From: Streptomyces sp. NBC_01283
GTDB lineage: Bacteria; Actinomycetota; Actinomycetes; Streptomycetales; Streptomycetaceae
Length of the DNA: 64,000 bases
Assembly: GCF_041435335.1 (NCBI RefSeq)
Contig: NZ_CP108430.1
Location: 2,232,001 to 2,296,000, forward strand
Direction: 5' to 3'
Part shown: piece by piece, positions 18,131 through 37,104 of the stretch
Numbering within the stretch: position 1 is the stretch's first letter
Layout: every line of letters starts with the position of its first letter
Notes under the pieces: generated by a model
What the model saw: the letters and a program-made list of their open reading frames with translations, nothing else
The model's database searches: none
Told to the model about the DNA's origin: nothing
Program-made: the position numbers and the translations under genes

Positions 18131-19063
18131 ATGCGTAAGACCGTTCTGTCCGCAATGACCGCACTGGGCGCGGGAATTGCCCTCGCGCTCAGCACCGGCC
18201 TGTCAGCGGCGCAGCCGGAGTCAGGACGGTGGCACCAGGTCGGGGACGACATGAAGTCCGGTATCAGCGGGCTCGCCGTCACCTCTCGTTCGGGTGACGA
18301 TCTTCGCGCCCTCGTCGTACGCGACAACAAGCGGCCCGGCGAGAACCGCATCGCCGAGGTGACCCACCGCGCCGGCCGGCCCGCCGAGGTCGCGGCGATC
18401 ACCTGGCAGGACGGCATCGAGCCGGTCGACCTGGAGGCGGTCGACGCGGTGCCGGGGACGTCCGACGAGTACGTGGCCGTGGCCAGCCGCGGGCTCGCCT
18501 ACCACGTCAAGCTGACCGACGCCGGGGAGAGCGCGGAGGTCCTGGACATCACACCGCTGCCGTCGATCGGATCGGGCGACAACTTCGAGAGTTTCACGCT
18601 GACCTCACGGCACGGGAAGACGGCGGCGGTCTGGGCGGACCGGGGCGAGGGCGCGGACCGCCCCGCGACGCTCTACGCGGCGCGGTTCTCGGTCAACTCC
18701 TACGGTGAGTCGAAGTTCGGCGCGGTGCACAAGGCGACCCTCCGCGCGCCGTACCCGACGGGGAACGTGCGCCACGCCTCCGACATCGAGGTAACCAAGT
18801 CGGGCCGCATCCTGGTCAGTTCGGCGTCCGACGCCGGTGACGACGGGCCGTTCGACTCCGCCGTCAGCGACGCGGGCAAGCTGACCGTCACCTCCGCCGG
18901 AAAGGTGCGGCTGTCCGTCGACAGGTCGCCCGAACTCCTCGGCACGTTCAAGGGTTACAAGATCGAGGCCCTGCACTGTGTCCCCGGCTCCGACCTCGCG
19001 GCCCTCGGCACGGACGACGAGAACGCGGGCGGCTCCCTCACCACGCGCCACCTCTGCGACTGA
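18131..19063 (+). CDS. Secreted beta-propeller-like protein of unknown function
   Basis: A 310-residue protein with a clear signal peptide (MRKTVLSAMTALGAGIALALSTGLSAAQ). The mature part has repeated beta-rich stretches: SGISGLAVTSRSG, VDLEAVDAVPGTSDEYVAVASRG, DNFESFTLTSRHG, SDIEVTKSGRILVSSASDAGDDGPFDS, KGYKIEALHC. The spacing resembles the esterase-like/phytase-like propeller family, but no active site was identified. AGAGGTCCCTGACC precedes the ATG. Two cysteines near the C-terminus could pair. Function unknown. Confidence 0.7.
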   Translation: MRKTVLSAMTALGAGIALALSTGLSAAQPESGRWHQVGDDMKSGISGLAVTSRSGDDLRALVVRDNKRPGENRIAEVTHRAGRPAEVAAITWQDGIEPVDLEAVDAVPGTSDEYVAVASRGLAYHVKLTDAGESAEVLDITPLPSIGSGDNFESFTLTSRHGKTAAVWADRGEGADRPATLYAARFSVNSYGESKFGAVHKATLRAPYPTGNVRHASDIEVTKSGRILVSSASDAGDDGPFDSAVSDAGKLTVTSAGKVRLSVDRSPELLGTFKGYKIEALHCVPGSDLAALGTDDENAGGSLTTRHLCD

Positions 19064-19083
19064 CACCCGCATGGACGAGGCGG

Positions 19084-19518
19084 TCAGCGCCCTGGAGCGG
19101 TGACGTCGGCCCACACCGTCTTGCCGACGTCCCGCCCGACCACGCCCCACACGTCGGCCAGCGCCGCCACGATGACGAGCCCCCGGCCCGAAGCAGCCTC
19201 GGGCACGGGTAGTTCGGTCACCCCGGACGGCCTGCGCTCGCTCAGGGTGTCCGACACCTCGATACGCAGCGTGTGCGCGTGGAGCGCCAGGCGGAGCTCG
19301 AAGTCACGGCCGGGCACGCGGCCGTGGGTCACGGCGTTCGCCGCGAGCTCGGCGACGATCGCCTCGACGGCGTCGGACAGCTCACTGTCGTACGGGATGC
19401 CCCAGCTGTCCAGGTGATACCTGGTCAGCCTGCGTGCGAGGCGAGCGCCGCGGGGCGTGGAACTCAGGCGCTGGGTGAGTTCCCGCAGGGGCGTGGCGGG
19501 TTGGGCTTGGGTCGGCAT
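19084..19518 (-). CDS. HATPase-type (anti-sigma/RsbW-like) ATP-binding protein
   Basis: A 144-residue protein from ATG 19518 (MPTQAQPATPLRELTQ); an alternative TTG at 19593 would add 25 residues. The Bergerat ATP-binding fold is seen: N-box AIVAELAANAVTHG, G1-like DTLSERRPS, and GRGLVIVAALADVWGV. Such short proteins in Streptomyces often accompany XRE/DUF397 pairs like the divergent genes here. They may act as anti-sigma factors or as partners of the XRE protein. Kinase activity towards an anti-sigma antagonist is possible. Confidence 0.85.
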   Translation of the reverse strand: MPTQAQPATPLRELTQRLSSTPRGARLARRLTRYHLDSWGIPYDSELSDAVEAIVAELAANAVTHGRVPGRDFELRLALHAHTLRIEVSDTLSERRPSGVTELPVPEAASGRGLVIVAALADVWGVVGRDVGKTVWADVTAPGR

Positions 19519-22453: not shown

Positions 22454-24334
22454 TCAGCGGGCGTACAACTGCGCCGACGGCACGATCTGCTGCTCCTGTC
22501 CCGGGCTGGACCAGAGCAGTTTCATGTGGGCCTCGCCGGTCTGTTCCGCGTACTCGATCCTGATCGAGTGCCGCTTCCCCGCGGTGAGCGCGACCTGCGC
22601 CTTGTCGATCTTCGCCTCGTGCGGCGACCACGAGTCGATGACCAGCTTGCCGTCGACCCACACCCGCGCCATGTCGTCCGAGACGGTCGTCAGCGTGTAC
22701 GTCTCCGAGCGGCGCGGCTCCAGGGTGCCGGTCCAGCGGACGCTGAACTTGTCGGAGGGGATGCTCGCGGCCGGTGAGCCCTCGTACTTCCAGGCGTGGT
22801 TGACGGTGGCGTCGGTGCGGGTGATCTTCGGGGTGCCGGTCAGGTCGGCGTTGTCGAAGATCTCCTGCTTCAGGCCCGTTCCCTTGCCGGGGCGGGCCGT
22901 GGGGCCCGGGTCGACCTTCAGCTCGATGACCGTGGCGGTGTCGTTGGTCGCCGCGCCGGACGGCTTCAGGTCGAAACCGTCGCCGGACTTGGTGACCGTC
23001 ACCCTCTGGTCGCTGCCGAGCACCCGCGCCGACGTGACCCGGAAGTCCGTGCGCGCCTTCAGGTGCAGGGCGGCGCCGGACGCCGGCCACTGGGTGACCG
23101 CCGCGTACAGCTTGTCGCCCTTGCGGCTGACCGAACCCCAGGACGGCTCCTCGACGAGTCCGCCGAAGCGGGCGCCGAACACCGCGTTGCCCTGGCCCGA
23201 CGTGCGCAGCCAGTCGCCCATCTGCTTCAGGCGGTCGACGGAGGGCTGCGGGACACGGCCGCGGGCGTCGGGGCCGACGTTCAGGAGGTAGTTGCCACTG
23301 CGGGACGTCGTGGAGAGGAGGTTCTTGACCAGGGTGGACGACGACTTCCAGTGGGTGTCGTAGCCCGCGAAGCCCCAGTGGTCGTTGAGGGTCATGCAGG
23401 ATTCCCAGAGCTGACCGTCGACCGGGGCGCCGGGGATCTCCTGCTCGGGGGTGCCGTAGTCACCGTCCACGACGCGGCGCTTGCCGACGCGGTTGTTGAT
23501 GATCAGGTCCGGGTCGAGGTCACGGAGGTAGGCCTCCAGTTTCTCGCCGTCCCGTGACGTCCAGGGGTTGTGGGGCTTGTCGGTGTCCCACTCGCCGTCG
23601 AACCAGAGCAGGGCCGGGTCGTAGTTGTCGACCAGCTCCTTGAGCTGGGCGCGCATCCGCTTCTCGTACTTCGGGAAGGTGGCCGGGTCGGGGAAGTCCG
23701 GGTCGTGCCAGTCCCAGATCGAGTAGTAGAAGCCGAGCTTGATGCCCGCGTCGTCGGATGCCTTCTTCAGCTCGGCGAGGATGTCGCGGTTCTTGTCGAA
23801 GGACGAGTGGTCGCGCAGGTTCCAGTCGTTGACCTTCGTGGGCCACATCGCGTAGCCCTCGTGGTGCTTCGAGGTGATGACGATGTAGCGCATTCCGGCG
23901 TCCTTGGCCGCCTTCACCACTGCCTTGGCGTCGAAGTCGGCCGGGTTGAACGTCGCGGCCCGCTTCTCGTACTCGGCCTTCGGGATGTCGCACTGGCGCT
24001 GGATCCACTCGGCGTCGCGGCAGGCCGAACCGTCGGCCTTCTTGTACTCGCCCTCCAGGTTGGAGTACGCGCCGAAGTGGATGAACATGCCGAAGCGGTC
24101 CTGCCGCCACCAGTTGGTGCGGTCGGCGGTGAAGGGGTCGTCGGTGGCGTGGTCGGTTCCCGGGCCGGTGGCCGGCGTGGCCTTCGCGGGCGTCTCTGCC
24201 GTTGCTGCCGTTCTGGCCGGGGGGTCCGTCGAGGCCGCGACCGCCGCGGGGACGGCGGTCGCGGCGAGGGCCGACGCGAGGAGCAGGGCGATCCCGGCGA
24301 CTCTTCGCCGAGTGCGGCTGAGCTGTGTGCGCAT
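22454..24334 (-). CDS. Secreted alpha-L-fucosidase (GH29) with C-terminal PA14 domain
   Basis: A 626-residue exported enzyme. The signal peptide starts MRTQLSRTRRRVAGIALLLASALA. The GH29 TIM barrel is at about residues 50-390: FGMFIHFGAYSNLEG, MRYIVITSKHHEGYAMWPTK, and NYDPALLWFDGEWDTD, whose Asp is the expected nucleophile. SGNYLLNVGPDARGRVP closes the barrel. A beta-sandwich follows, then a PA14 domain at about 490-615 (SDKFSVRWTGTLEP, SDDMARVWVDGKLVIDSW), probably carbohydrate-binding. It releases L-fucose from glycans outside the cell. A good promoter with an overlapping operator lies upstream. Confidence 0.92.
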   Translation of the reverse strand: MRTQLSRTRRRVAGIALLLASALAATAVPAAVAASTDPPARTAATAETPAKATPATGPGTDHATDDPFTADRTNWWRQDRFGMFIHFGAYSNLEGEYKKADGSACRDAEWIQRQCDIPKAEYEKRAATFNPADFDAKAVVKAAKDAGMRYIVITSKHHEGYAMWPTKVNDWNLRDHSSFDKNRDILAELKKASDDAGIKLGFYYSIWDWHDPDFPDPATFPKYEKRMRAQLKELVDNYDPALLWFDGEWDTDKPHNPWTSRDGEKLEAYLRDLDPDLIINNRVGKRRVVDGDYGTPEQEIPGAPVDGQLWESCMTLNDHWGFAGYDTHWKSSSTLVKNLLSTTSRSGNYLLNVGPDARGRVPQPSVDRLKQMGDWLRTSGQGNAVFGARFGGLVEEPSWGSVSRKGDKLYAAVTQWPASGAALHLKARTDFRVTSARVLGSDQRVTVTKSGDGFDLKPSGAATNDTATVIELKVDPGPTARPGKGTGLKQEIFDNADLTGTPKITRTDATVNHAWKYEGSPAASIPSDKFSVRWTGTLEPRRSETYTLTTVSDDMARVWVDGKLVIDSWSPHEAKIDKAQVALTAGKRHSIRIEYAEQTGEAHMKLLWSSPGQEQQIVPSAQLYAR

Positions 24335-24369
24335 GGGGGCGGCTCCCTGAGGTTGAGGGGTCGCTCGGG

Positions 24370-24398
24370 AACGTAGGGTCGAATACATCGGATGTCAA
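24370..24398 (-). promoter_or_regulatory. Promoter and operator of the fucosidase gene
   Basis: On the minus strand: -35 TTGACA (24398-24393), a 17-base spacer, -10 TACGTT (24375-24370), close to the housekeeping consensus. The palindrome ACATC-G-GATGT (24385-24395) covers the -35/spacer edge, where a sugar-responsive repressor would block polymerase. Transcription should start near 24363, 29 bases before the ATG. Confidence 0.65.
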
Positions 24399-24708
24399 TG
24401 CGCCCAACTGAGCCCGATGGGCCGGATGTTGGCGTGATCGCACACCATCGCTCCGATGACTGGCGATCACGCCACCGCCCGTCCACCCCCTCGCCCTCAC
24501 CCTCATCCCCATAAGGATTTCAGGCGAATTCCGATCAATGCGCTAAAGGAATCTGTGACTCCGACAAACAGCCGCGCGATGTCGTCCGCACGTGTTCTAA
24601 CTATTGACTATTAACCGGAAGCGGCTTTGTAAGTGTGGTGTAGCATCGGATCAGGCAGATAATTCTTCTACGATGAAAATCGGCCAACGGGGGCCAGGGG
24701 GGCCATCA
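24399..24708. other. Regulatory gap between fucosidase and response-regulator genes
   Basis: No gene seen. An 11-bp inverted repeat, GGCGTGATCGC (24431-24441) and GCGATCACGCC (24463-24473), encloses a smaller palindrome, CATCG-CTC-CGATG (24446-24458), which resembles the operator at 24385. The stretch 24500-24680 is clearly more AT-rich than the surroundings and contains TTGACT and TAGCAT elements. It is likely to hold the promoter of the response-regulator gene. Confidence 0.5.
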
Positions 24709-25374
24709 GTGTCATCGATAAAGATCCTGCTTGTCGACAGCGAACAACTCGTCCTCGAAGGCTTCCGAAAGCTTCTCGACGGGTTTACGGAATTCTGCGT
24801 GGTGTCCATCGCCCATGACGCCGCCGCCGCACTCAGGGAGTTGCACAGGCGCCGCCCGCAGATCGTCGTGATGGGACTCGGCGTTCCCGGTACGGGCGGC
24901 GTGGACGCGATCCGGGCCATTCGCCGCGAGTCCGGCCACGTGCGCATCGTCATCCTCTCCTCCAACCAGCAGCCGGTCTATATGCGGGAAGCCTTCGTGG
25001 CCGGCGCCAACGCCTATCTCTCCCGCAGCATCGACGCGGACGAACTGCGCGCGACGCTCCTCGCCGTGCACCGCGACGGCGCGGCGTTCTCCGCGGCCAC
25101 GGCGGGCCCGATCCTGCAGCTCATGGCGGGCCGCCACCGCGGGGAGGACGCGGCCCTGTCGACGCTGACCGAGCGCGAGCGGCAGATCCTGTCCCTGGTC
25201 GCCGAGGACCATGAGACCGCCTGCATCGCCACCGCCCTGGGCATCCGCCCGAAGACCGTGCGCAACTACCTGAGCCGTATCTACGCCAAGTTGGGCACCC
25301 CCAACCGCGTCCAGACAGTCCTGTACGCGAAACGCTCGTTGGGCCGCCAGGGAGGACTCGCGACGGACCCGTGA
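24709..25374 (+). CDS. Atypical NarL/LuxR response regulator lacking the phospho-acceptor Asp
   Basis: A 221-residue protein from GTG 24709 (SSIKILLVDSEQLVLEGFRK), preceded by GGGGGGCC; an ATG 36 bases upstream is possible. The N-terminal receiver domain keeps one acidic-pocket residue (D10). At the phosphorylation site the sequence is IVVMGLGVPG: glycine 56 replaces Asp. The conserved Lys is also changed (AYLSRSIDADE). The C-terminal LuxR domain is normal (LSTLTERERQILSLVAEDHE, RPKTVRNYLSRIYAKLG). No kinase gene is adjacent. Such regulators often act without phosphorylation and may bind pathway products. It ends 96 bases from the polyketide operon end (convergent) and may regulate it. Confidence 0.85.
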   Translation: MSSIKILLVDSEQLVLEGFRKLLDGFTEFCVVSIAHDAAAALRELHRRRPQIVVMGLGVPGTGGVDAIRAIRRESGHVRIVILSSNQQPVYMREAFVAGANAYLSRSIDADELRATLLAVHRDGAAFSAATAGPILQLMAGRHRGEDAALSTLTERERQILSLVAEDHETACIATALGIRPKTVRNYLSRIYAKLGTPNRVQTVLYAKRSLGRQGGLATDP

Positions 25375-25470: not shown

Positions 25471-26316
25471 TCAATGCGGTTGCCGTACTTCACGTTCCCG
25501 TACTTCACGTTCCGGTACGTCGGCGACCGCCCTGCACCATGCCGCGCCCGCATCGGCAAGCGCGATGGGGAAGGCCATGAAGGTGAACTCGCCGCCCTGC
25601 GGGATGTCCCGCAATCGGGTCAGTCCCTCGATCTGGATGAACTCGCGTTTCCTGCCATGGATATGCGTGGGCCAGAGAGCCGCGCGATCCCCGGTTCCGT
25701 AGAAGGATTCCACCATCGCGCGTGCGGGGCCGTCGAAACTCCAGCAGTCCGTGCCGAGCACCTTCACGCCGAGATCAAGGAGATGGTCGACGGCCTCGGG
25801 GGTGATGGCGGTGGACTCCGTGTAGTACGCGGGAGTGCCCAGGCGCAGATCCAAGTCGGTGCGGAAGAGCACCACCGTCCCCGGGCCCACCCGTGAACCG
25901 GCCGCGTGCAGCGCCTCCTTGACGTCCGATGCCGTGACGCGCCCGCCGCACTCCCGTACGTCGAGGACGACACCGGGCCCGCGGAACCACTCCAGCGGCA
26001 GGTCGAGAACCTTCTTGGCGGGACTGCCCGCGCACTCGGGGCCGTAGTGGAAGGGCGCGTCCACGTGTGTGCCCTGGTGCACGGACATCCGGTAGAACTC
26101 GTTGGAGAGGAAGCAGCCGTCGGGCAGGTCACTTGCGCGCAGCCTGCGGGCTCCGGTCAGCCAGCGCCAATAGTTGCGCCGCCGGTCCTTGCGGCTGTCC
26201 CCCGGCAGCGCCCTGATCCTGCGTGACAGGTGACGGATGCCGTCCTGGTGCAGCCACTGCTCGAACTCCACGCCGGGTGCCCGGCGGCTGATGGGGATGC
26301 TCAGGTCCACGTACAT
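25471..26316 (-). CDS. Cyclase family protein (HxGTHxD metal-dependent, PF04199 type)
   Basis: A 281-residue protein from ATG 26316 (MYVDLSIPISRRAPGVEFEQ). The metal-binding signature is MSVHQGTHVDAPFHYG (HxGTHxDxPxH), and the second conserved block is GTDCWSFDGP. The fold is shared by kynurenine formamidases and by cyclases found in aromatic polyketide clusters. In this operon it probably helps late ring closure or hydrolysis. The C-terminus carries a repeated charged tail, VREREVREREVRQPH, encoded by two 15-bp tandem units (25484-25513). It is the last gene of the operon, 71 bases after the kinase gene. Confidence 0.85.
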   Translation of the reverse strand: MYVDLSIPISRRAPGVEFEQWLHQDGIRHLSRRIRALPGDSRKDRRRNYWRWLTGARRLRASDLPDGCFLSNEFYRMSVHQGTHVDAPFHYGPECAGSPAKKVLDLPLEWFRGPGVVLDVRECGGRVTASDVKEALHAAGSRVGPGTVVLFRTDLDLRLGTPAYYTESTAITPEAVDHLLDLGVKVLGTDCWSFDGPARAMVESFYGTGDRAALWPTHIHGRKREFIQIEGLTRLRDIPQGGEFTFMAFPIALADAGAAWCRAVADVPEREVREREVRQPH

Positions 26317-26346
26317 CGTCCGAACGCACCTCGCTCTTTCTCTGTC

Positions 26347-26386
26347 GGTTGCTGTGCCGGTGACGCGGTTGCCGTGCCGGTGACGC
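26347..26386. repeat. Tandem 20-bp repeat between kinase and cyclase genes
   Basis: GGTTGCTGTGCCGGTGACGC at 26347-26366 is followed directly by GGTTGCCGTGCCGGTGACGC at 26367-26386; 19 of 20 bases match. It fills half of the 71-base gap in the operon and ends at the kinase stop. Probably replication slippage. Confidence 0.8.
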
Positions 26387-26387
26387 C

Positions 26388-27401
26388 TCACGCGGCGTAG
26401 GTGAGCAGGCGGCGGATCGCGGCCGCCGTCGTGTGCCCGTAGGCCTCCCTGGCCCGGTTGAGGAGGCGGCGTACGTCCATCGCGTACTCCTGTGCTCCGG
26501 TCGCCTCCAGAGCGAACGAGGCGAGCACGCAGCCCAGTTGAGCGGCCCGCTCGATCGGTGCGCCCTGGGCGACCCCGGCGATGAGGCCCGCCCGGAGCGC
26601 GTCCCCCGCCCCGCTCGGCTCGGCCACGGCGACCGAGCCGATGCCGGGCACCAGGGACGGCGTGTGACCGGCGCGCTCGATCCGCACCCCGGCGGCGCCG
26701 AGCGTGGTCACCCACGCCCCGACCCGTTCGAGAATCCGCGGACCGCTCCAGCCGGTGGCTTCCCTCAACCGCGCCGCATCACCCTCGTCGGTGACGACGC
26801 AACTCGCCCCCGAGATCAGGTACTTGAGGTCCGCGCGGCCCATCCCTCCGATCTGCCACGAAGGGTGGGCCACGAACGGCAGCCCCAGCGCCCGGCACTC
26901 CTCGGTGTGCCGGAGCATCGCGGCCGGGTCGCCCGGCGCGACCACCACCAGGCCGAGACCGCCCGTGCGCCCGGCGACGGAACGCAGCGAGAGGGCGGAC
27001 GACGCCCCCATGGCCCCCGGCCGGAAGGTGCTGAATCGCTCCCCCTCCGTGTCGGTCGTGCACACGTGGCGCGCGGTGTGCTCGCCCGGCACGACGAGGA
27101 CGGACTCGGTGTCGACCCCGTGCTGCTTGAGCCACACCTGGTAGTCGGCGAAGTCGGAGCCGACCGCGCCGACCAGGACCGGGTCGAGGCCGAGGCGGCC
27201 GAGGCCGAAGGCGATGTTGGCGGCGGCACCGCCCCGGCGTATCCCGAGCCGCTCGGCGAGGAACGCCAGGGACGCGACGTGCGGCCGGTCCGCCGCCGGC
27301 CGCTCCGGGAAACGGCCGGGGAAGGTCATGAGGTGGTCCATCGCGATGACCCCCGAGACGGCGATGCGCTTGGCGATGCCCTTGGTGGCGGCGACGGACA
27401 C
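26388..27401 (-). CDS. PfkB-family (ribokinase-like) sugar/nucleoside kinase
   Basis: A 337-residue kinase from GTG 27401, with GAGG just upstream. Family features: GVIAMDHLMTFPGRFPE, RRGGAAANIAFGLGRLGLDPVLVGAVGSDF (di-Gly substrate loop), and PSGAGDALRAGLIAG (the GAGD catalytic-base motif). Overall it resembles the adenosine-kinase-like branch. It phosphorylates a hydroxyl of a sugar or nucleoside with ATP. Embedded in the polyketide operon, 7 bases after the aromatase gene, so a role in phosphorylating a pathway intermediate, sugar or primer is likely but unproven. Such a gene is unusual in type II polyketide clusters. Confidence 0.85.
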   Translation of the reverse strand: MSVAATKGIAKRIAVSGVIAMDHLMTFPGRFPERPAADRPHVASLAFLAERLGIRRGGAAANIAFGLGRLGLDPVLVGAVGSDFADYQVWLKQHGVDTESVLVVPGEHTARHVCTTDTEGERFSTFRPGAMGASSALSLRSVAGRTGGLGLVVVAPGDPAAMLRHTEECRALGLPFVAHPSWQIGGMGRADLKYLISGASCVVTDEGDAARLREATGWSGPRILERVGAWVTTLGAAGVRIERAGHTPSLVPGIGSVAVAEPSGAGDALRAGLIAGVAQGAPIERAAQLGCVLASFALEATGAQEYAMDVRRLLNRAREAYGHTTAAAIRRLLTYAA

Positions 27402-27408
27402 GGTGACC

Positions 27409-27852
27409 TCAGATCCCGGACTCGATCTTCCGCTTGATGCCCGCCTGGTTCTGCCGGGTGTGCACCTGCATGCGCTCCACGACGGTCGGCAGCGGGACAT
27501 CAAAGGCGTCATCGACCTCGAAGTCCTGGACCCAGGTCATCAGGGTCCCCTCGGGCACCTGCCGATAGCTCCACCTGAGGTGCATGTAGCGGAACGGAAA
27601 GAGCGGATCGCGCCGCTCGGCTACCGCCGTGAGCTCGCGGTGGTCCAGGAGCCGCCAGGAACTCCACGTCGAGCCCTCGGGGTTGGTCAGTTCGAAGTGG
27701 ATCTCGGTCCAGCGGCCGTCCCGCTCCTCCGAGACCACCTTGGCGTGTCGGTACTCGTCGAAGAGGTCGGGCCAGCGGCCGATGTCGTTGGTGATCTCGA
27801 AGACGCGCGGGGCGTCGGCCTCGATGACGACGCTGTTCTCGATCCTGGGCAT
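27409..27852 (-). CDS. SRPBCC polyketide aromatase/cyclase
   Basis: A 147-residue single START/Bet-v1-fold protein: ENSVVIEADAPRVFEITNDIGRWPDLFDEYRHAKVV, RYMHLRWSYRQVPEGTLMTWVQDFEV, and the C-terminal helix ERMQVHTRQNQAGIKRKIE. This matches monodomain aromatase/cyclases of type II systems (TcmN N-terminal half and the WhiE relatives), which fold and aromatise the first ring of the ACP-bound polyketone. It lies 5 bases after the ACP gene. Residues such as the W-x-x-R and acidic pocket positions suggest a working pocket. Confidence 0.88.
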   Translation of the reverse strand: MPRIENSVVIEADAPRVFEITNDIGRWPDLFDEYRHAKVVSEERDGRWTEIHFELTNPEGSTWSSWRLLDHRELTAVAERRDPLFPFRYMHLRWSYRQVPEGTLMTWVQDFEVDDAFDVPLPTVVERMQVHTRQNQAGIKRKIESGI

Positions 27853-27857
27853 CGTCC

Positions 27858-28115
27858 TCAGCTCCCCACCGCCGCGGCGACGCCGGCCGACAGCAGGCGC
27901 TCCACGCAGTCGACGAGGTCACCGAGGGTACGGAAGCCGCCCTCGGCGTCGGCGTCGATGCTGACGCCGAAGTGCTGTTCGAGGGCGACGACGATCTCGA
28001 CCAGCTCGGTCGAGTCGATGTCGAGGTCCTCGGCCAGGCGCTGGTCGTCGGTCAGCTCCTCGCTCTCGAAGCCCGCACCGCGCAGGACGGTGACCACGTT
28101 CTCTCGGATGTTCAT
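27858..28115 (-). CDS. Acyl carrier protein of the type II polyketide system
   Basis: An 85-residue protein from ATG 28115, with AAGGGAG upstream. The four-helix ACP pattern is clear: ENVVTVLRGAGF, LTDDQRLAEDLDIDSTELVEIVVALEQHFGVSI, TLGDLVDCVERLLS. The serine in DIDSTELVE is the 4'-phosphopantetheine site. The acidic recognition helix II follows. It carries the growing polyketide chain for the ketosynthase pair. It sits 50 bases after the AcpS gene that presumably activates it. Confidence 0.93.
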   Translation of the reverse strand: MNIRENVVTVLRGAGFESEELTDDQRLAEDLDIDSTELVEIVVALEQHFGVSIDADAEGGFRTLGDLVDCVERLLSAGVAAAVGS

Positions 28116-28165
28116 GGAACTCCCTTGCTCTTTGAGGTGGTTCGGATGGGATGACGGGCCGGGGG

Positions 28166-28594
28166 TCAGTCGGCGACCGCGATCGCCACGGCCACGCCCG
28201 CCTCGTGCGAGATGCTCACGTGCAGCCCGCTGTACCCGGCGAGCCGGAAGGCCTCGCCCGCCCGGCCGGTCAGCCGGGGCACCGGTGCGCCCGACGCCTC
28301 GCGGCCGATCTCGACGTCCCGCCAGCCCAGTCCTTCGCCGTGGCCGCCGAGTGCCTTGCGCACGGCCTCCTTGGCGGCGATGCGGCCCGCCATGCAGGAG
28401 GCACGGTGGCGCGGCGATGTGCCCTCGCACAGGGCCAGTTCGTTGACGGTGAAGAACCGCTCCACGAGCCGCTGCCCGCGCCGCTCGGCCATCGCGCGCA
28501 GGCGCTCGACGTCGACGATGTCGATGCCGACCGCGCGGATGCCGGACGACCGGGGCAGGACGCCCCGCGCGGTCAACGCCTCAGCAACAGACAT
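28166..28594 (-). CDS. acpS: Holo-ACP synthase (AcpS-type phosphopantetheinyl transferase)
   Basis: A 142-residue AcpS-type enzyme that moves phosphopantetheine from CoA to apo-ACP. Motifs: AVGIDIVDVERL (magnesium-binding Asp) and RIAAKEAVRKALGG (KEA motif with the second metal ligand and catalytic Lys), with RFFTVNELALCEG between them. The N-terminal 20 residues (MSVAEALTARGVLPRSSG) are an extension. The gene starts 22 bases inside the chain length factor gene. A dedicated AcpS in a type II polyketide operon is uncommon, because most rely on a housekeeping or Sfp-type enzyme. Confidence 0.9.
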   Translation of the reverse strand: MSVAEALTARGVLPRSSGIRAVGIDIVDVERLRAMAERRGQRLVERFFTVNELALCEGTSPRHRASCMAGRIAAKEAVRKALGGHGEGLGWRDVEIGREASGAPVPRLTGRAGEAFRLAGYSGLHVSISHEAGVAVAIAVAD

Positions 28595-29814
28595 GCGTTG
28601 ACACCTCCCAGGCCGCGCGAGACCACGAGCGTGTGCGCGCAGTCGGCCATGGGGCGCGCCTGTCCCGCGACGAGGTCGAGGTCGATGCCGGGTGCGGGGC
28701 GGTCCAGGTTCACGGTCGGCGGAAGCACGCCGTCGCGCATGGCCCGCAGGGCGAGCGCCGCGTCGGCGGGTGCCGCGGCTCCCAGGAGGTGACCGAAGCC
28801 CGACTTGGGCGCGGTCACGGGGAGTTGGCGTGCGACGTACGGGCCGAAGGCCTCGTGCAGCGCGTACCCCTCCGTCACGTCCTCGAAGGGGATGCCCGAG
28901 CCGTGCGCGAAGACCGCTCCGATGTCGCTGCCGGAGATCCCGGCGCGTTCCGTCGCGGTCCGCATGGCGCGGCCCAGGACCTGCCCGGTCGGCTCGACCG
29001 TGTAGTACGGCATGTAGCCGTCGGTGCTCACGCCCCAGCCCGCCAGCTCGCCCAGGATCCGCGCCCCGCGCCGCTCGGCGTGCTCGCGGCGCTCCATGAC
29101 CAGGAACACCGCGCCCTCGCCGAAGACGCTGCCGCCGTGGCCCGCGTCGAACGGCCGGTACAGCTCGTGCGGCCCGAGCGAGCCGCGCGACTTGGCGCCG
29201 AGCCCGCTGGTCTCCATGCAGAGCCAGCCGTACGGCGACAGGGGCGCCTCCACGCCGCCCGCGATCACGATGTCCGCGCGGTCGCGCAGCAGTGTCTCGG
29301 CTCCGCCGATCAGCGCGTACGCGCCGCTGGCCCGGTCGGCGACGAACGTGCGCGCCGGGCCCTTGATGCCCTGGTCGATGCAGATGTTGCCCTGCGGCGC
29401 CGCCGGGAACCAGGCGGTCGCCTGGTAGGGGCTGACCGCGCGCGGCCCGTCTGTCCAAAGGTGGCGCAGCTCGCGCTCGGCGAACTCCCAGCCGCCGAGG
29501 ATGTTGCCGACCATGACGCCGGTGCGCTCGGCGGACGCGTCCTCGCCCACGGTGACGCGGGCGTCCGCGAGGGCCTGCCGCACGGCGTGCACGGACAGGT
29601 GCGTGAAGCGGTCGGTGCGCTTGACGAAGCGGGACGGGAGTTCCGCCGCGGCGTCGAAGTCCGCCTGGCCCGCGGCCGATGTGGCGTACCCCGAGGCGTC
29701 GAAGCGGTCGATGGCAGCGACTTGCGGGACGCCGTCGCGTGCGCTGTCCCAGAGGGGGTCGATGCCGGTGCCCGCGGGCGTGACCGCGCCGATGCCGGTG
29801 ATGACGACGCTCAT
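28573..29814 (-). CDS. Ketosynthase beta (chain length factor) with Arg at the active site
   Basis: A 413-residue thiolase-fold protein coupled to the ketosynthase alpha gene by ATGA. It starts MSVVITGIGAVTPAGTGIDPLWD. The region aligned with the catalytic Cys is GPARTFVADRASGAYAL: Arg161 stands where alpha subunits have Cys and most chain length factors have Gln. Histidine positions in VFAHGSGIPFEDV and KSGFGHLLGAAAPADAAL remain. It cannot form a thioester, so it acts as the non-condensing partner setting chain length. The Arg substitution is unusual and may alter decarboxylative priming. Confidence 0.87.
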   Translation of the reverse strand: MSVVITGIGAVTPAGTGIDPLWDSARDGVPQVAAIDRFDASGYATSAAGQADFDAAAELPSRFVKRTDRFTHLSVHAVRQALADARVTVGEDASAERTGVMVGNILGGWEFAERELRHLWTDGPRAVSPYQATAWFPAAPQGNICIDQGIKGPARTFVADRASGAYALIGGAETLLRDRADIVIAGGVEAPLSPYGWLCMETSGLGAKSRGSLGPHELYRPFDAGHGGSVFGEGAVFLVMERREHAERRGARILGELAGWGVSTDGYMPYYTVEPTGQVLGRAMRTATERAGISGSDIGAVFAHGSGIPFEDVTEGYALHEAFGPYVARQLPVTAPKSGFGHLLGAAAPADAALALRAMRDGVLPPTVNLDRPAPGIDLDLVAGQARPMADCAHTLVVSRGLGGVNACLLLRR

Positions 29815-31169
29815 CGGTGCGCCCCTTCCCGTACGGCCCGGGTGACGAGCGCGGCGTGCAGCCCCGCGAATCCGCTGGCGCCCTTGAGGATCGCCTCGCC
29901 GTGCCAGGGGCGGCCTTCGCCCGGGACGTAGTCGAGGTCGCAGGTCGGATCGGGGTTCTCGTAGTTGGCGGTCGGGTGGACGAAGGAGTGCTTGCCCGCG
30001 AGAGCGCAGAGCACGATCTCCATGGCGCTCGCGGCGGCCAGCGCGTGGCCGACCATCGACTTCGCCGAGTTCACCGGGATCTGCCGGGCGCGCTCACCGA
30101 GGGCGAGCTTGAGTGCGCTGGTCTCGCAGGTGTCGTTCTGCGGGGTCGAGCTGCCGTGCGAGCTGACGTGATCGATGTCCTGGGGACGCAGGCCGGCCTC
30201 CGCTACGGCCTGTGTCATGGCGCGGGTCAGATCCTCGCCGTCGGACAGCAGATCGGTCATGTGCGCGGCGTTGGAGGTGTGCGAGAAGCCGTCGACCGTC
30301 AAGTAGGGGGCTGCGCCCCGGCGTTCGGCGTGCTCGCGCGACTCCAGTACGACGATGCCGCAGCCCTCGCCGAGCACGAAGCCGTCGCGGCCCGCGTCGT
30401 ACGGACGTGACGCGGCCTCGGGGCGGTCGGCGTGCGCGCGCGAGAGGCAGTTGATGATCTCGAAGGACGCCACCGTCACCGGGGTGATGGGCGCCTCCGT
30501 GGCCCCCGCGATCATCACGTCCGCGTCCCCGTGGCGGATCGCGTCGTAGGCGTGGCCGATCGCGTCGACGCCGCCGATGCAACCCGTCGACAGGGTCACG
30601 CACGGGCCCTGCATGCCGAGCAGCGCCGAGAGGATCGTGCCGGGGGTGTTCGACATGGACGCGAGGTAGAGGTCGCGGCCCGCCTTGGCCGGGTCTATGG
30701 GCCCCCGGCCCCCGTCGGTGACCCGCAGGAACTCCTCCTCCATCTTCGGGGTGCCGCAGACCGCCGTGGACAGCGAGAGTCCGGCGCGTTCCGGGTCGTA
30801 GGTGCCCTGGGTGAGTCCGGCGTCGCGTACGGCCTGGAGCACGGCCGCGACGGCGAACTGCGTGTACCGGTCGAGGCGCCGCACCTCGGGCGGCAGGGCC
30901 GGTATCTGGTCCTCGAATCCGGGGACCTCGGCGATCGAGTCCGACACGAAGTCGAAGTCGCCGAAGAGCGCCGAACTCGTGACGTCGGAAAGGGGTTTGG
31001 TGACGCTCTTTCCCGCGGAGATCGTTTCCCATAATGCTTCTGTGCCGATGCCGGCCGGGCTGACCACGCCAAGACCGGTGACGACCACTTCTCGCGCTTC
31101 TGGCGCTTCGCTCACTTCTCGCGGTTCTTGTACTTCTCGCGCTTCAGGCACTTCTCGCACGTGAATCAC
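29811..31169 (-). CDS. Ketosynthase alpha of a type II polyketide synthase
   Basis: A 452-residue condensing enzyme from GTG 31169, overlapping the methyltransferase stop (GTGA) with AAGG upstream. Catalytic Cys197 lies in GPCVTLSTGCIGGVDAIGHA, His in SSHGSSTPQNDT and in NSAKSMVGHALAAAS. It extends malonyl units on the ACP together with the beta subunit. The sequence is recognisably type II but diverges from common aromatic alphas (for example SFEIINCLSRAHADRP). The first 28 residues are a charged repeat (REVPEAREVQEPREVSEAPE) before the usual VVVTGLGVVSPAG start. Confidence 0.9.
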   Translation of the reverse strand: MIHVREVPEAREVQEPREVSEAPEAREVVVTGLGVVSPAGIGTEALWETISAGKSVTKPLSDVTSSALFGDFDFVSDSIAEVPGFEDQIPALPPEVRRLDRYTQFAVAAVLQAVRDAGLTQGTYDPERAGLSLSTAVCGTPKMEEEFLRVTDGGRGPIDPAKAGRDLYLASMSNTPGTILSALLGMQGPCVTLSTGCIGGVDAIGHAYDAIRHGDADVMIAGATEAPITPVTVASFEIINCLSRAHADRPEAASRPYDAGRDGFVLGEGCGIVVLESREHAERRGAAPYLTVDGFSHTSNAAHMTDLLSDGEDLTRAMTQAVAEAGLRPQDIDHVSSHGSSTPQNDTCETSALKLALGERARQIPVNSAKSMVGHALAAASAMEIVLCALAGKHSFVHPTANYENPDPTCDLDYVPGEGRPWHGEAILKGASGFAGLHAALVTRAVREGAHR

Positions 31170-32233
31170 TGCCGCCTTTCTCCTGTCAGGACGGTGATGA
31201 GGCCGGGTGTGACGGACTCCTTTGCCGTCACTCCGCATTTCTCCATGACCGCGCGATACGCGGATTCCTCCCGGACCCCGCCCGCCTCGGTGTTCACCAG
31301 GAGGCTGAGCGCGATCATCGGGCGGTGCAGGGCGGGCAGCCCCGGCTGCTGGCGCATGACCTCGACGATCAGGAGGGTGCCGCCGGGCCGCAGCAGCCGC
31401 GCGCACTCCTGGACGAGGCCCTCGGTGGCGTCCGGGCCCGCGAAGCGGCTCAGGTGGGCGAGGACGACGGTGTCGAAGCAGCCGCCGGGGAAGGGCGCCT
31501 TGGGGAAGTCGCCCGCGTAGTCCCTGGTGAAGTCGGCGGGGACGAACCGGAACCGCTCCTTCACGCCGAACTCCGCCGCCCGTTCCCGCGCGGCGGTGAG
31601 CAGCTCCGGGGCGTCGTGGGCCACCACCCGTGCCTCAGGGTCGGCGGCGGCCAGGGCGATGCCCCACTCCCCCGCGCCGGACGCGAGGTCCAGGACGTGG
31701 CCCGCCTCCGGCAGGGCGAGCTCCCGCACCACGCGGAAGGCGGTGCGCACGCCCACCGGGAAGATCCCGGCGAACATCCCCGGGTACAGGCCCCGGTTCT
31801 CGGGCTCGCCCAGTTCACCGCCACCGTGCCCGCCGGCCCGCACCAGTTCGGTGAGGGTGCTCCACTGGTCCCACTCCGCGAGTACGTCGGCGAAGTGGTC
31901 GCCGAGGTAGCCCCGGGCACCCTCGACGAGGTAGGCGCGGGAGGCTGCGGTGAGGGCCCAGTTCTCCTCCGCGCCGCCCGCGACCAGGCCGAGCTCCTCC
32001 AGGGCGGCGAGCAGTGCGCGCAGCGCGTCGGTGTCGCAGCCCAGCTCGGCGGCGAGACCCCGGGTGCCGCGCGTGCCCCGGGCGAGGCCGGTGAAGACGC
32101 CCAGGTCCAGGGCCGTGCCGAGCACCCTGGATCGGGCGAAGCCGAAGTTCAGGGCGAGGAGGGGGCCGGGGTCCGGCGCTTCCTCGTACGGAGCGAGCGC
32201 GCGGCTGTGGGCCGCGGCCGTCGGGGCAATCAC
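31166..32233 (-). CDS. SAM-dependent O-methyltransferase with dimerisation domain
   Basis: A 355-residue methyltransferase from GTG 32233, overlapping the cupin stop by 4 bases. The N-terminal 110 residues form the winged-helix dimerisation domain (ALNFGFARSRVLGTALDLGVFTGLA, ALRALLAALEELGLV). The SAM motif is AGHVLDLASGAGEWGIALAAADP, followed by ARVVAHDAPELLTAA and later LLRPGGTLLIVEVMR. It resembles acetylserotonin/TcmN-C-type O-methyltransferases, which methylate phenolic hydroxyls of polyketides. Its operon place supports a tailoring role. Confidence 0.88.
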   Translation of the reverse strand: MIAPTAAAHSRALAPYEEAPDPGPLLALNFGFARSRVLGTALDLGVFTGLARGTRGTRGLAAELGCDTDALRALLAALEELGLVAGGAEENWALTAASRAYLVEGARGYLGDHFADVLAEWDQWSTLTELVRAGGHGGGELGEPENRGLYPGMFAGIFPVGVRTAFRVVRELALPEAGHVLDLASGAGEWGIALAAADPEARVVAHDAPELLTAARERAAEFGVKERFRFVPADFTRDYAGDFPKAPFPGGCFDTVVLAHLSRFAGPDATEGLVQECARLLRPGGTLLIVEVMRQQPGLPALHRPMIALSLLVNTEAGGVREESAYRAVMEKCGVTAKESVTPGLITVLTGERRQ

Positions 32234-32664
32234 TTGCCGCCCTCCAGAAGGCTCACGTACTCGGGGTTGTGCGTGTACTCGTACGGGTCCTCGGAGAGGA
32301 AGACGTTCCGTACCGGGGGCCGCTCGCAGGGTGCGACGACCAGGAACCGGCAGGTCTGGTCCGGTCCCGTGACGAAGCCGTGGGGTTCGTTGCGGGGGAT
32401 GAAGATGGCGTCGCCGGGGCCGACTTCCTCGGTCTTTCCGAGCTCGGGCATGACGAGCCCCATCGAGCCTTCGAGCACATAGATCTCGTGCTCCCACTCG
32501 TGGTAATGCGGCGGTGTGGAGCCGTTCGGCGAGACCTCGAATTCGGTGAGGACGAAGCGGTCGGCGCCGTCCGGTGTGTCGATGAGTTTCCGGTGGGTGG
32601 TTTCCTTCGCTCCCGGTTCGCGGACTATTTCGGCCTTGACCGCGGTCCTGTGCACGCGCTTCAT
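32230..32664 (-). CDS. Cupin-domain protein, first gene of the polyketide operon
   Basis: A 144-residue single cupin. Motif 1 is STPPHYHEWEHEIYVLEG (two His and Glu), and motif 2 is GDAIFIPRNEPHGF (third His), so a divalent metal should bind. AAAGG stands before the ATG at 32664. Small cupins accompany type II systems (WhiE ORFII, TcmJ), where they aid complex function or ring formation; this parallel supports a similar role. It could instead be a metal-dependent oxygenase or isomerase acting on the polyketide. Confidence 0.88.
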   Translation of the reverse strand: MKRVHRTAVKAEIVREPGAKETTHRKLIDTPDGADRFVLTEFEVSPNGSTPPHYHEWEHEIYVLEGSMGLVMPELGKTEEVGPGDAIFIPRNEPHGFVTGPDQTCRFLVVAPCERPPVRNVFLSEDPYEYTHNPEYVSLLEGGK

Positions 32665-33684: not shown

Positions 33685-33917
33685 CCGCCGACGCTAGCAC
33701 TGCCACATGGACCTTTGCCGCGAGAGCGGCCGTCGGCGGGCGCGCGGCGGAGCGGGCCGTCCTCGGACACACGACAGGCCCCGCTTTCGTTTCTGTAGGC
33801 CCAATGGCCTCTCTCCGTATCTTGACCATGGTCCATGCGCGGTTCATCGTGGCGCCGTCTCGCACTGCCCGCCGCGTCCGCGCGGGCTTCGTCGAAACGG
33901 GAGGGTATCCCTACGTC

Positions 33918-36110
33918 ATGCCCCTGGCCCGCCGCACCTTCCTCACCGCTCTTGCCGGAACCACCGGCGCCGCCGTCGCCTGTTCCGGGTCCGTCGCCGA
34001 CGGGGCCGCGACCCCGGCCTCCGGGGCGGCAGCCGCAGTTGATGCCGCCCGGCGGCTGCTGCCCCGTCACTGGCAGCAGCTGACGTTCACGACCGCGGGT
34101 GCCGCCGACACCTTTCGGATCTCCGGGCGGCGCGGGCACATCGTCGTCGCCGGACCGACTCCCGCCGTCCAACTCACCGGGCTGCGTCACTACTTGAAAC
34201 ATTCCGCTCACGCCAGCATCACGTGGGCGGGCTCTCAGCTCGACCTGCCCGACCTGCTTCCCGGCCTCGACAAGGCCGTGACCAGGACCGCCAACGCCCC
34301 GCACCGCTTCGTCCTCAACGACACGAACGACGGCTACACGGGGGCGTACCACGACTGGTCGTACTGGGAGCGCGAGATCGACGTGCTCGCACTGCACGGC
34401 TACAACGAAGTACTCGTGTACGTCGGCGCCGACGCGCTCTACCACCGCGTGTTCCAGGAGTTCGGCTACTCCGACGAGGAGATGCGCGAGTGGATCCCGG
34501 CCCCGGCTCACCAGCCGTGGTGGCTGCTGCAGAACATGTCCGCCTTCCCGCATCCCGTTTCGCGTCAACTCCTGGACAGGAGAGCCGCGTTGGGGCGGCG
34601 CATCACCGACCGGCTGCGCGAGCTCGGCATGACCCCCGTCCTCCCCGGATACTTCGGGACGGTCCCGCCCGGCTTCGAAGCGAAGAATCCCGGCGCGAAA
34701 ACCGTGCCGCAGGGCGACTGGGTCGGCTTCGCGCGGCCCGACTGGCTCGACCCGCGCACCGAACACTTCGGCCGGGTGGCCGCCGCCTTCTACCGCCGGC
34801 AGGACGAGCTGTTCGGCACCTCGACCATGTACAAGATGGATCTTCTCCATGAGGGCGGGAAGCCGGGTGACGTGCCGGTCCCGGAGGCCGCGAAGGCCGT
34901 CGAGGCGGCCCTCCAGGACGCGCATCCCGGCGCCACCTGGGTGATCCTCGGCTGGCAGAGCAACCCGCCCAAGGCCATCGTCGACGCCGTCGACAAGTCG
35001 AGGATGCTGGTGGTCGACGGCCTCTCCGACCGCTTCCCGAAGATCACCGACCGCGAGTCCGACTGGAACGACACCCCGTACACCTTCGGCTCGATCTGGA
35101 ACTTCGGCGGACACACGACACTCGGCGCCAACACCCCCGACTGGGCCGCGCTCTACGAAAAGTGGCGCACCGAGGAAGGCAGCACGCAGCGCGGCATCTC
35201 CCTGATGCCGGAAGCCGCCGACAACAACCCCGCCGCCTTCGAGCTCTTCTCCGAACTGGCTTGGCGAACAGGTGACTTGGACCTCAAGCAGTGGTTCGCC
35301 GACTGGGCCGTGTCCCGCTACGGCGCCGCCGATCCGCACGCGTCCGCCGCCTGGGACATCCTGCGCCGCACCGCGTACGGCACGACCCGCGCCGACGAGT
35401 GGTCCGAGGGCGCGGACGGCCTCTTCGGCGCACGCCCCGACCTCGCGGCGAAGTCGGCCGCCGCCTGGTCACCGATGGCGATGCGGTACCCACTCGCCGA
35501 CTTCGAACCCGCACTCAGGGAACTCACCTCAGTCCACGTCGAGTTGAGGGCCTCTTCCGCCTACCGCCGCGACCTCCTCGACGTGGCCCGCCAAGCGCTC
35601 TCCAACCGCAGCCGCACCCTCCTCCCCCAGATCAAGCAGGCGTACGACGACCGGGACACCGCCCGCTTCGACCGGCTGACCCGGACCTGGCTCGGTCACA
35701 TGGACCTGCTCGACAAGCTGGTGGCCACCGACTCCCGTCACCTCCTGGGGCGTTGGGTCGCGGACGCCCGCTCGTGGGGTGCCGACGCCGAGGAACGGGA
35801 GCACCTCGCGTACGACCAGCTCTCGCTCCTCACCGTGTGGGGCACGCGGGCCGGGGCGGACGCGGGGCTGCGCGACTACGCCAACCGGGAGTGGGCCGGA
35901 CTGGTCGGCGGGCTCTACCGGCTGCGCTGGGACACGTACTTCAAGGAGTTGCGGGCGGCACTCGGCGAAGGACGCGAGCCGAAGGCCGTGGACTGGTTCG
36001 CGCTCGAAGACGGATGGATTCGTGACCCGGGGCGCCTCGCGGCCCGGCCGACCGGAGACACGTACAAAGTCGCTGTTCAGGTGCGCGAACGGCTGACCGG
36101 GACGCGCTGA
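33918..36110 (+). CDS. Secreted alpha-N-acetylglucosaminidase (GH89)
   Basis: A 730-residue exported enzyme. A Tat signal (LARRTFLTALAGTTGAAVACSG) ends in a possible lipobox Cys. A small N-terminal domain follows, with HIVVAGPTPAVQLTGLRHYLK. The catalytic barrel contains VLNDTNDGYTGAYHDWSYWEREIDVLALHGYNEVL, FPHPVSRQLLDRRAALGRRI, LGMTPVLPGYFGTVPP and YKMDLLHEGGKPGD, all matching the NAGLU family. The last 230 residues form the all-helical domain. It releases terminal alpha-linked GlcNAc from glycans. The start is the Met before the twin arginines; the frame is open upstream. Confidence 0.9.
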   Translation: MPLARRTFLTALAGTTGAAVACSGSVADGAATPASGAAAAVDAARRLLPRHWQQLTFTTAGAADTFRISGRRGHIVVAGPTPAVQLTGLRHYLKHSAHASITWAGSQLDLPDLLPGLDKAVTRTANAPHRFVLNDTNDGYTGAYHDWSYWEREIDVLALHGYNEVLVYVGADALYHRVFQEFGYSDEEMREWIPAPAHQPWWLLQNMSAFPHPVSRQLLDRRAALGRRITDRLRELGMTPVLPGYFGTVPPGFEAKNPGAKTVPQGDWVGFARPDWLDPRTEHFGRVAAAFYRRQDELFGTSTMYKMDLLHEGGKPGDVPVPEAAKAVEAALQDAHPGATWVILGWQSNPPKAIVDAVDKSRMLVVDGLSDRFPKITDRESDWNDTPYTFGSIWNFGGHTTLGANTPDWAALYEKWRTEEGSTQRGISLMPEAADNNPAAFELFSELAWRTGDLDLKQWFADWAVSRYGAADPHASAAWDILRRTAYGTTRADEWSEGADGLFGARPDLAAKSAAAWSPMAMRYPLADFEPALRELTSVHVELRASSAYRRDLLDVARQALSNRSRTLLPQIKQAYDDRDTARFDRLTRTWLGHMDLLDKLVATDSRHLLGRWVADARSWGADAEEREHLAYDQLSLLTVWGTRAGADAGLRDYANREWAGLVGGLYRLRWDTYFKELRAALGEGREPKAVDWFALEDGWIRDPGRLAARPTGDTYKVAVQVRERLTGTR

Positions 36111-36258: not shown

Positions 36259-37104
36259 GTGCCCACCCCCCATCGCGCCCCCACGCCCCGCCTGCACACC
36301 TCACGCCGCACCCTGCTCGGCTTCATCGGCGCCTCGCTCGTCGCGGGCCCCGTCATCGCCTCGCAGACGGCGGGCGCCGCGCCCACCGCCAAGGCGGGCG
36401 GACTCGACGATCCGGCGAAGAAGGAGATCGCCATGCAGATCGTGTGCAGCGCCGAGAACTCCGACCTCAAGTGGAAGGACTACTACCGCTACTGCGAGGA
36501 CATAGACGACGGCCGCGGCTACACCGCCGGGATCATCGGCTTCTGCTCGGGCACCGGCGACATGCTCGACCTCGTCGAGCTCTACACCCAGCGCAAGCCG
36601 AACAACATCCTCGCCAAGTACCTGCCCGCGCTGCGCGAGGTGGACGGCACCGACTCCCACGACGGCCTCGACCCCAACTTCAAGCGCGACTGGGAGAAGG
36701 CCGCCCAGGATTCCGAGTTCCAGAAGGCGCAGAACGACGAGCGTGACCGCGTCTACTTCAACCCTGCCGTCAAGCAGGGCAAGGCCGACGGCATCGGTGT
36801 CCTCGGGCAGTTCGCGTACTACGACGCGATCGTCATGCACGGCAACGGCGGCGACAGCACCAGCTTCGCCAACATCCGCAAGCGCGCCCTGCGTTCGGCC
36901 AAGACACCGGCCCAGGGCGGCGACGAGGTCACCTACCTCAACGCTTATCTGGACGCGCGCGTCTGGGCGATGAAGCAGGAAGAGGCACACGAGGACACCA
37001 GCCGCGTCGACACGGCCCAGCGGGTGTTCCTGAAGAAGGGCAACCTGAACCTGAACACGCCGCTGGAGTGGAAGGTGTACGGAGACCCGTACCGCATCGG
37101 CTGA
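36259..37104 (+). CDS. csn: Secreted chitosanase (GH46)
   Basis: A 281-residue enzyme from GTG 36259 with GGAGG before it. The Tat signal is SRRTLLGFIGASLVAGPVIASQTAGA. The mature protein begins near AGGLDDPAKKEIAMQIVCSAENSD, whose Glu is the general acid. CEDIDDGRGYTAGIIGFCSGTGD supplies the catalytic Asp and the conserved cysteines. The remainder (YFNPAVKQGKADGIGVLGQFAYYDAIVMHG...) matches the well-studied N174 chitosanase throughout. It cleaves beta-1,4-glucosamine chains outside the cell. Probably repressed through the palindrome at 36183-36197 and induced by chitosan fragments. Confidence 0.96.
   Translation: MPTPHRAPTPRLHTSRRTLLGFIGASLVAGPVIASQTAGAAPTAKAGGLDDPAKKEIAMQIVCSAENSDLKWKDYYRYCEDIDDGRGYTAGIIGFCSGTGDMLDLVELYTQRKPNNILAKYLPALREVDGTDSHDGLDPNFKRDWEKAAQDSEFQKAQNDERDRVYFNPAVKQGKADGIGVLGQFAYYDAIVMHGNGGDSTSFANIRKRALRSAKTPAQGGDEVTYLNAYLDARVWAMKQEEAHEDTSRVDTAQRVFLKKGNLNLNTPLEWKVYGDPYRIG

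Follow-up and report, generated by a model that had tools for sequence, protein, structure and literature searches.

A compact nine-gene relative of the resistomycin gene set in Streptomyces sp. NBC_01283

The window analysed here is a stretch of 64,000 nucleotides from Streptomyces sp. NBC_01283 (contig NZ_CP108430.1, positions 2,232,001 to 2,296,000), part of a 9.4-Mb contig in a 9.6-Mb genome, and its subject is a type II polyketide operon of nine intact open reading frames on the minus strand at 25471-32664. Read in the direction of transcription, the operon opens with a cupin cyclase (32230-32664; Pfam Cupin_2, 1.6e-16), followed by an S-adenosylmethionine (SAM) methyltransferase that we call MT2 (31166-32233, with a GTG start at 32233; Methyltransf_25, 6.8e-13), ketosynthase alpha (KSa, 29811-31169; ketoacyl-synt, 9.2e-43) and ketosynthase beta, the chain length factor (KSb, 28573-29814; ketoacyl-synt, 6.3e-33). 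These are followed by a holo-acyl carrier protein synthase (AcpS, 28166-28594; ACPS, 8.2e-16), an acyl carrier protein (ACP, 27858-28115; PP-binding, 4.4e-9), an SRPBCC aromatase/cyclase (27409-27852; Polyketide_cyc2, 1.4e-10), a kinase of the PfkB family (26388-27401; PfkB, 1.8e-35) and a cyclase with the motif HQGTHVD (25471-26316; Cyclase PF04199, 7.9e-30). Pfam thus backs all nine families that an earlier reading of the sequence, here called the original prediction, had named. The tight junctions that it described were also found: the cupin and MT2, MT2 and KSa, and KSa and KSb genes overlap by 4 bases each (32230-32233, 31166-31169 and 29811-29814), KSb and AcpS overlap by 22 bases (28573-28594), and the gaps after AcpS measure 50, 5, 7 and 71 bases in order (with starts taken at 28115, 27852, 27401 and 26316). 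The KSa frame opens with a low-complexity stretch rich in E, R and V (about 31115-31169), which leaves its start codon uncertain. None of the nine genes encodes a ketoreductase, an oxygenase or a glycosyltransferase, in agreement with the proposed non-reducing aromatic type II set. The composition is unusual, as claimed, with respect to the genes, but not to the bases, the G+C content being ordinary for the window.

The window cupin matches the resistomycin cyclase RemF (PDB 3ht1) at 1.5e-88 with phmmer. The cupin of a locus in Streptomyces resistomycificus DSM 40133 (L010) is identical to 3ht1 RemF in 141 of 141 residues, on the basis of which L010 is taken as the published resistomycin (rem) locus. 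Its gene order is cupin, a methyltransferase that we call MT1, MT2, KSa, KSb, AcpS, ACP, SRPBCC aromatase, a kinase resembling adenosine kinase (AdoK), a PEMT-like methyltransferase, PF04199 cyclase, acyltransferase and TetR; on the opposite strand after TetR follow a flavin adenine dinucleotide (FAD) oxygenase, which is RemO-like (18252-19430, minus strand of L010), and a major facilitator superfamily (MFS) transporter. The window shares with L010 nine genes in identical order and a conserved LuxR-type regulator, and protein identities to L010 range from 62.5 to 91%: 91% for the cupin, an orthologue of RemF; 83% for KSa and 85% for KSb, orthologues of RemA and RemB; 77% for the SRPBCC protein, RemI by position; 84% for the PF04199 cyclase, RemL by position; and 63% for MT2 (34% to MT1 of L010), which gene order would make RemH. 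In contrast, the window has no MT1 between its cupin and MT2 genes, no PEMT-like gene between those of the kinase and the cyclase, and, downstream, none of the acyltransferase, TetR, MFS and RemO-like oxygenase genes that L010 carries. Neither a RemO-type oxygenase nor an MFS exporter lies beside the window operon, the only candidate being an MFS gene of 37% identity at 16562-17821. The resistomycin ketosynthase is described as forming a subclass of its own (PMC4383371), RemA as nearer to FabF than are most type II ketosynthases and the resistomycin minimal polyketide synthase (PKS) as requiring a cyclase (PMC6638757), and the discoid product as dependent on three cyclases (PMC6689052). The window contains the RemF-type cupin that marks a resistomycin-type (discoid) PKS core, with the SRPBCC and PF04199 cyclases at the positions that they occupy in the resistomycin locus. 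Judged by its sequence, the nine-gene set is a slimmed-down relative of the resistomycin gene set rather than an unknown kind of pathway.

Ketosynthase searches place the operon within a small family. Among the best 80 of 295 KSa candidates, which gave 79 loci, 17 loci have a KSa at least 74% identical to that of the window together with companion genes, and the other 62 have a KSa of at most 42% and no match to the cupin, methyltransferase, AcpS, aromatase, kinase or cyclase. At an E-value of 1e-150, 392 genomes sampled from the genus gave a KSa match in 8 (the window's own included), and 394 sampled from the class gave one in the window's own alone. After removal of duplicates (L106-L109, which repeat L010, L014, L012 and L019), 21 distinct rem loci were compared, the window included. 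The other 20 have a KSa 73.5-91% identical to that of the window, and identity falls to 40.8-47.5% in 55 rows of actinorhodin type, which include some repeats of one genome and remain from a search of 58 after three rows were removed as rem ketosynthases or for failing a score filter. In the KSa tree, the 21 rem rows form one clade (support 100/99), with the window inside it and apart from the actinorhodin-type clade. Membership in the spore-pigment or tetracenomycin sets was rejected on these identities (at most 47.5%) and this position, in a tree whose references are actinorhodin (1tqy) and ketosynthases from Streptomyces genomes, with no named WhiE or tetracenomycin sequence; the original prediction had likewise set the operon apart from these sets as one with divergent ketosynthases. 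It had also suggested an uncharacterised pathway, a suggestion that by its own terms falls if the ketosynthases join a characterised product clade with the same gene order. The KSa does share its clade with the resistomycin locus, and that locus has the nine genes in this order, AcpS and kinase included, so the type of pathway is known. What survives of the suggestion is the compact sub-form, of which no description was found in the open-access literature; nothing was found there either that combines a type II polyketide with PfkB, a cupin and a phosphopantetheinyl transferase (PPTase).

The closest solved relative of the window KSa is PDB 6smo (2.3e-102), the anthraquinone synthase AntD of Photorhabdus. 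It clusters with the rem loci in the tree; however, it is only about 42% identical to the window KSa and sits on a long branch in a position flagged as unsure. The Photorhabdus anthraquinone cluster also carries a PPTase gene of its own, antB (PMC6638757). A second AcpS copy, 43% identical, lies elsewhere in the window genome. In all 21 loci, KSb has an arginine at the position of the active-site glutamine of the chain length factor (VAEQAGG in actinorhodin).

The 21 loci take two forms. Six are compact (the window, L009, L105, L015, L016 and L023), and all six lack MT1, the PEMT-like gene, the malonyl-type acyltransferase, TetR, the RemO-like oxygenase and a close MFS transporter. Twelve other loci of Streptomyces type are full, among them L111, which has no kinase or TetR, and L024, the contig of which ends within the oxygenase gene. 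The remaining three, L020-L022, are rem-type loci outside Streptomyces, from metagenome-assembled genomes of Pseudonocardiales, which have MT1, the PEMT-like gene and a RemO-like match and no AcpS, kinase or acyltransferase match. Counted over all 21 loci, MT1 and the PEMT-like gene each occur in 15, AcpS in 18, a kinase match in 17 and the acyltransferase in 12. Because MT1 and the PEMT-like gene stand at matching places in the Pseudonocardiales loci, the ancestor would have had both. At E 1e-60, MT1 is absent from all six compact genomes and was recovered in the three full genomes tested alongside; in the window genome, the best MT1 match is the window's own MT2, at 35%. The closest compact relatives, L009 (Streptomyces sp. 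MZ04) and L105 (genome G280), share with the window the nine genes, the HxlR, NAGLU, fucosidase and LuxR neighbours and a KSa of 90-91% identity, and differ from it, as far as compared, in sequence divergence only. L016 and L023 also have the nine genes and the identical set of missing genes; together with L015, they differ from the window in their neighbours and in their branch of the seven-protein tree. L015 (Streptomyces ruber) is a decayed compact locus with a broken cupin gene and no cyclase, its other genes being kept.

Two separate losses are the favoured, though not proven, origin of the compact form. The seven-protein tree places the window, L009 and L105 beside the L010 group (100/99), with L015, L016 and L023 separate, and forcing the compact loci into one clade costs 28.7 log units (p = 0.00999 in the approximately unbiased test). 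A single loss is thus disfavoured by the seven-protein tree. However, it is not rejected by single genes (0.106 for KSb, 0.135 for MT2 and 0.356 for the kinase), and 64% of 200 kinase bootstrap trees group the compact rows. The KSa tree alone puts the window clade beside L111, L012, L018 and L024 (98/93), unlike the seven-protein tree, which makes single-gene placement unsure.

The bis-C-methyltransferase of the resistomycin pathway is reported to be RemG (PMC4787774). MT1 would be RemG by gene order and lettering, since the order of L010 agrees with the lettering F-G-H, I-J-K-L and O, with RemF as the cupin, RemI as the SRPBCC protein, RemL as the PF04199 cyclase and RemO as the FAD oxygenase. 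RemG in this sense is absent from both the window locus and its genome. MT2 is present in all 21 loci, directly before KSa and with its SAM-binding motif kept, although the literature ascribes the double C-methylation to RemG. The methylated product of the original prediction is possible, but the methyltransferase retained here differs from the one that gene order marks as RemG.

The closest solved relatives of the window kinase are adenosine kinases, among them AdoK of M. tuberculosis (2pkf, 7.6e-75), with which it shares the fold family, the catalytic GxGD motif and the ribose-side residues; a second kinase copy in the window genome is 47% identical. In M. tuberculosis AdoK, the adenosine pocket comprises Phe102, Phe116, Gln172, Gln173, Ser8, Ser36, Asp12, Gly48, Asn52 and Asp257 (PMC11720412). 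Pocket residues were counted in the rem kinases other than L018 and L024, in which the kinase is truncated, and L111 and L020-L022, which have none. Asn195 was added as an eleventh pocket residue. Nine full-locus kinases and the housekeeping copy retain all 11, L023 retains 9 and the other five compact loci 6; the window kinase, by sequence a member of the AdoK family, thus has only 6 of the 11 AdoK pocket residues. All six compact kinases keep Phe116 and the residues for ribose binding and catalysis, Asp12, Gly48, Asn52 and Asp257; the changes fall on the base-binding side, where Ser8, Ser36, Phe102, Gln172, Gln173 and Asn195 vary among compact loci and where Ser8, Ser36, Phe102, Gln172 and Asn195 are each replaced in the window. 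L023 keeps Ser36 and Phe102, showing that both residues changed separately in each compact group. Pocket sites are changed more often than random draws from 111 invariant sites (on average 2.45 of six rows against 1.01; p = 0.011 by permutation, which is a guide only, as the rows are related and the sites are those invariant in the reference and full-set kinases). The ratio of nonsynonymous to synonymous change (pN/pS), computed here and below for 12 hand-picked pairs, is 0.42-0.64 for the kinase in five compact pairs, as against 0.12-0.31 in five full pairs with intact kinases.

The operon as a whole looks functional. The KSa active-site cysteine and two histidine motifs are kept in the 21 aligned loci, as is the ACP attachment serine motif xIDS, and the catalytic motifs of the cupin and the cyclase are likewise kept across the aligned loci. 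Between the window and L105, pN/pS is 0.05 for the cupin, 0.21 for both KSa and KSb, 0.19 for the cyclase and 0.23 for the aromatase; constraint is weaker on MT2 (0.38), AcpS (0.37) and ACP (0.57). The kept motifs, together with ratios of 0.05-0.23, suggest working enzymes.

We consider it probable, on these sequence comparisons, that this is a working compact operon of the rem family and makes a discoid polyketide that lacks the gem-dimethyl group, probably an undescribed relative of resistomycin. By orthology, KSa, KSb and the ACP, activated by its dedicated AcpS, would build a poly-ketone chain, presumably a decaketide as in resistomycin, which the RemF-type cupin, the RemI-type SRPBCC protein and the RemL-type PF04199 cyclase would fold into the discoid ring system. 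With MT1 (RemG by gene order), the PEMT-like methyltransferase, the malonyl-type acyltransferase, the MFS exporter and the RemO-like flavin oxygenase lost, this product would have neither the gem-dimethyl group nor the resistoflavin hydroxyl; RemO is described as the hydroxylase on the way to resistoflavin (PMC3158105). In full clusters, a kinase of adenosine kinase descent may drain adenosine from the SAM cycle and thereby relieve inhibition of the methyltransferases, a role suggested because S-adenosylhomocysteine inhibits methyltransferases and adenosine kinase has served in SAM regeneration (PMC10992897); nothing linking resistomycin to adenosine kinase was found in the open-access literature. 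In compact clusters, the altered adenine side of the pocket suggests that this role was lost or the substrate changed. A fuller version, which we put forward tentatively and hold to be doubtful, has the set slimmed twice to nine genes, dropping MT1 and the PEMT-like gene along with oxidation and export each time, to yield an undescribed, fully aromatic discoid product of nor-resistomycin type, with the kinase freed for another nucleoside-like or sugar-like substrate. The operon belongs to an ordinary family, and its novelty lies in its form, a compact version of a known pathway. What looked like an unknown thereby yields a definite prediction: the nine genes, few enough to be expressed as a whole, would make a discoid compound like resistomycin that lacks gem-dimethylation. 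For the kinase of the resistomycin locus, so far unexplained, adenosine removal in the methyl cycle becomes a testable job, for which loci with intact and with altered pockets can serve as natural controls, and the two resistomycin methyltransferases are told apart by their differing fates.

Four observations weigh against a working operon with a product lacking the gem-dimethyl group. First, the assignment of RemG to MT1 comes from gene order, and the universal retention of MT2 would equally suit a gem-dimethylating enzyme. Second, the kinase is truncated in the full loci L018 and L024, with high pN/pS there too (0.41 and 0.56 in two pairs), and missing from the full locus L111, so that it is dispensable even with MT1 present. 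Third, the pN/pS of 0.57 for the ACP is high, although the gene is short and a full pair reaches 0.90. Fourth, the compact locus L015 has decayed.

The first of these leads to the strongest alternative, in which MT2, not MT1, gem-dimethylates, the lost genes are accessory and the compact operon may make resistomycin itself, as it would if MT2 were RemG. The distribution of the two methyltransferases favours this alternative, a protein-name search linked no sequence to the RemG label, a look for remG, remH and other rem letters in the open-access literature gave only unrelated papers, and the RemO step to resistoflavin follows resistomycin formation (PMC3158105), but the lettering in cluster order places G on MT1 and the pocket changes of the compact kinases fit a lower demand for methylation; we give it a minor, though appreciable, share of the probability. 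A reading of the operon as a resistomycin cluster in decay that no longer yields a product, for which the state of L015 and the relaxed constraint on the kinase speak, is improbable given nine intact frames with their active-site motifs, the low pN/pS values of cupin, ketosynthases, aromatase and cyclase, and the retention of all nine genes in five of the six compact loci. Less probable still is the uncharacterised aromatic pathway of the original prediction with a product phosphorylated by the kinase. Base-side change with Asp12, Gly48, Asn52 and Asp257 kept would allow a new nucleoside-like or sugar-like substrate. However, the operon shares its gene set and ketosynthase clade with the resistomycin locus, and PfkB-type folds work on sugar hydroxyls, not polyphenols; product phosphorylation was rejected on the kinase's adenosine kinase relatives. 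Replacement of the WhiE spore pigment by the operon in this strain is just as implausible, and as a general rule was rejected: the window genome probably has no WhiE-type cluster, since no KSa of actinorhodin type turned up in it at E 1e-100, whereas such a KSa occurs at 1e-110 in 52 of 61 Streptomyces sampled, but rem ketosynthases are unrelated to the actinorhodin type and four of the six compact genomes retain a KSa of that type (the class as a whole, not WhiE specifically).

Beside the cyclase gene lies a LuxR-type regulator (24604-25374, plus strand; Pfam Response_reg and GerE) that the original prediction did not mention and that travels with the cluster. It adjoins the cyclase in all six compact loci and stands beside the MFS gene in all eight full loci covered far enough (L010, L110, L012, L019, L014, L018, L025 and L111); its position was read from extended stretches for L010 (L176), L110 (L177), L012 (L178), L019 (L179) and L014 (L180), and it is visible only in part in L018 and L025. 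Loss of the block from acyltransferase to MFS would bring this gene to adjoin the cyclase. Its receiver domain lacks the phospho-acceptor aspartate, the column being glycine in all 14 readable rows, with the column assigned by motif reading.

The operon is flanked by alpha-L-fucosidase, NAGLU and GH46 chitosanase-family genes (22454-24388, 33804-36110 and 36259-37104), and fucosidase and NAGLU genes also adjoin the compact loci L009 and L105. About 4 kb to the left of the window (L102, 3687-9773, minus strand), a frame of 2028 amino acids with an odd domain order matches short-chain dehydrogenase, ketosynthase, ketoreductase (KR) and PKS dehydratase, with an acyltransferase gene alongside. Ketosynthase matches 14 kb to 151 kb from one end of the 9,425,041-base contig are mirrored at the opposite end, pointing to long terminal inverted repeats.

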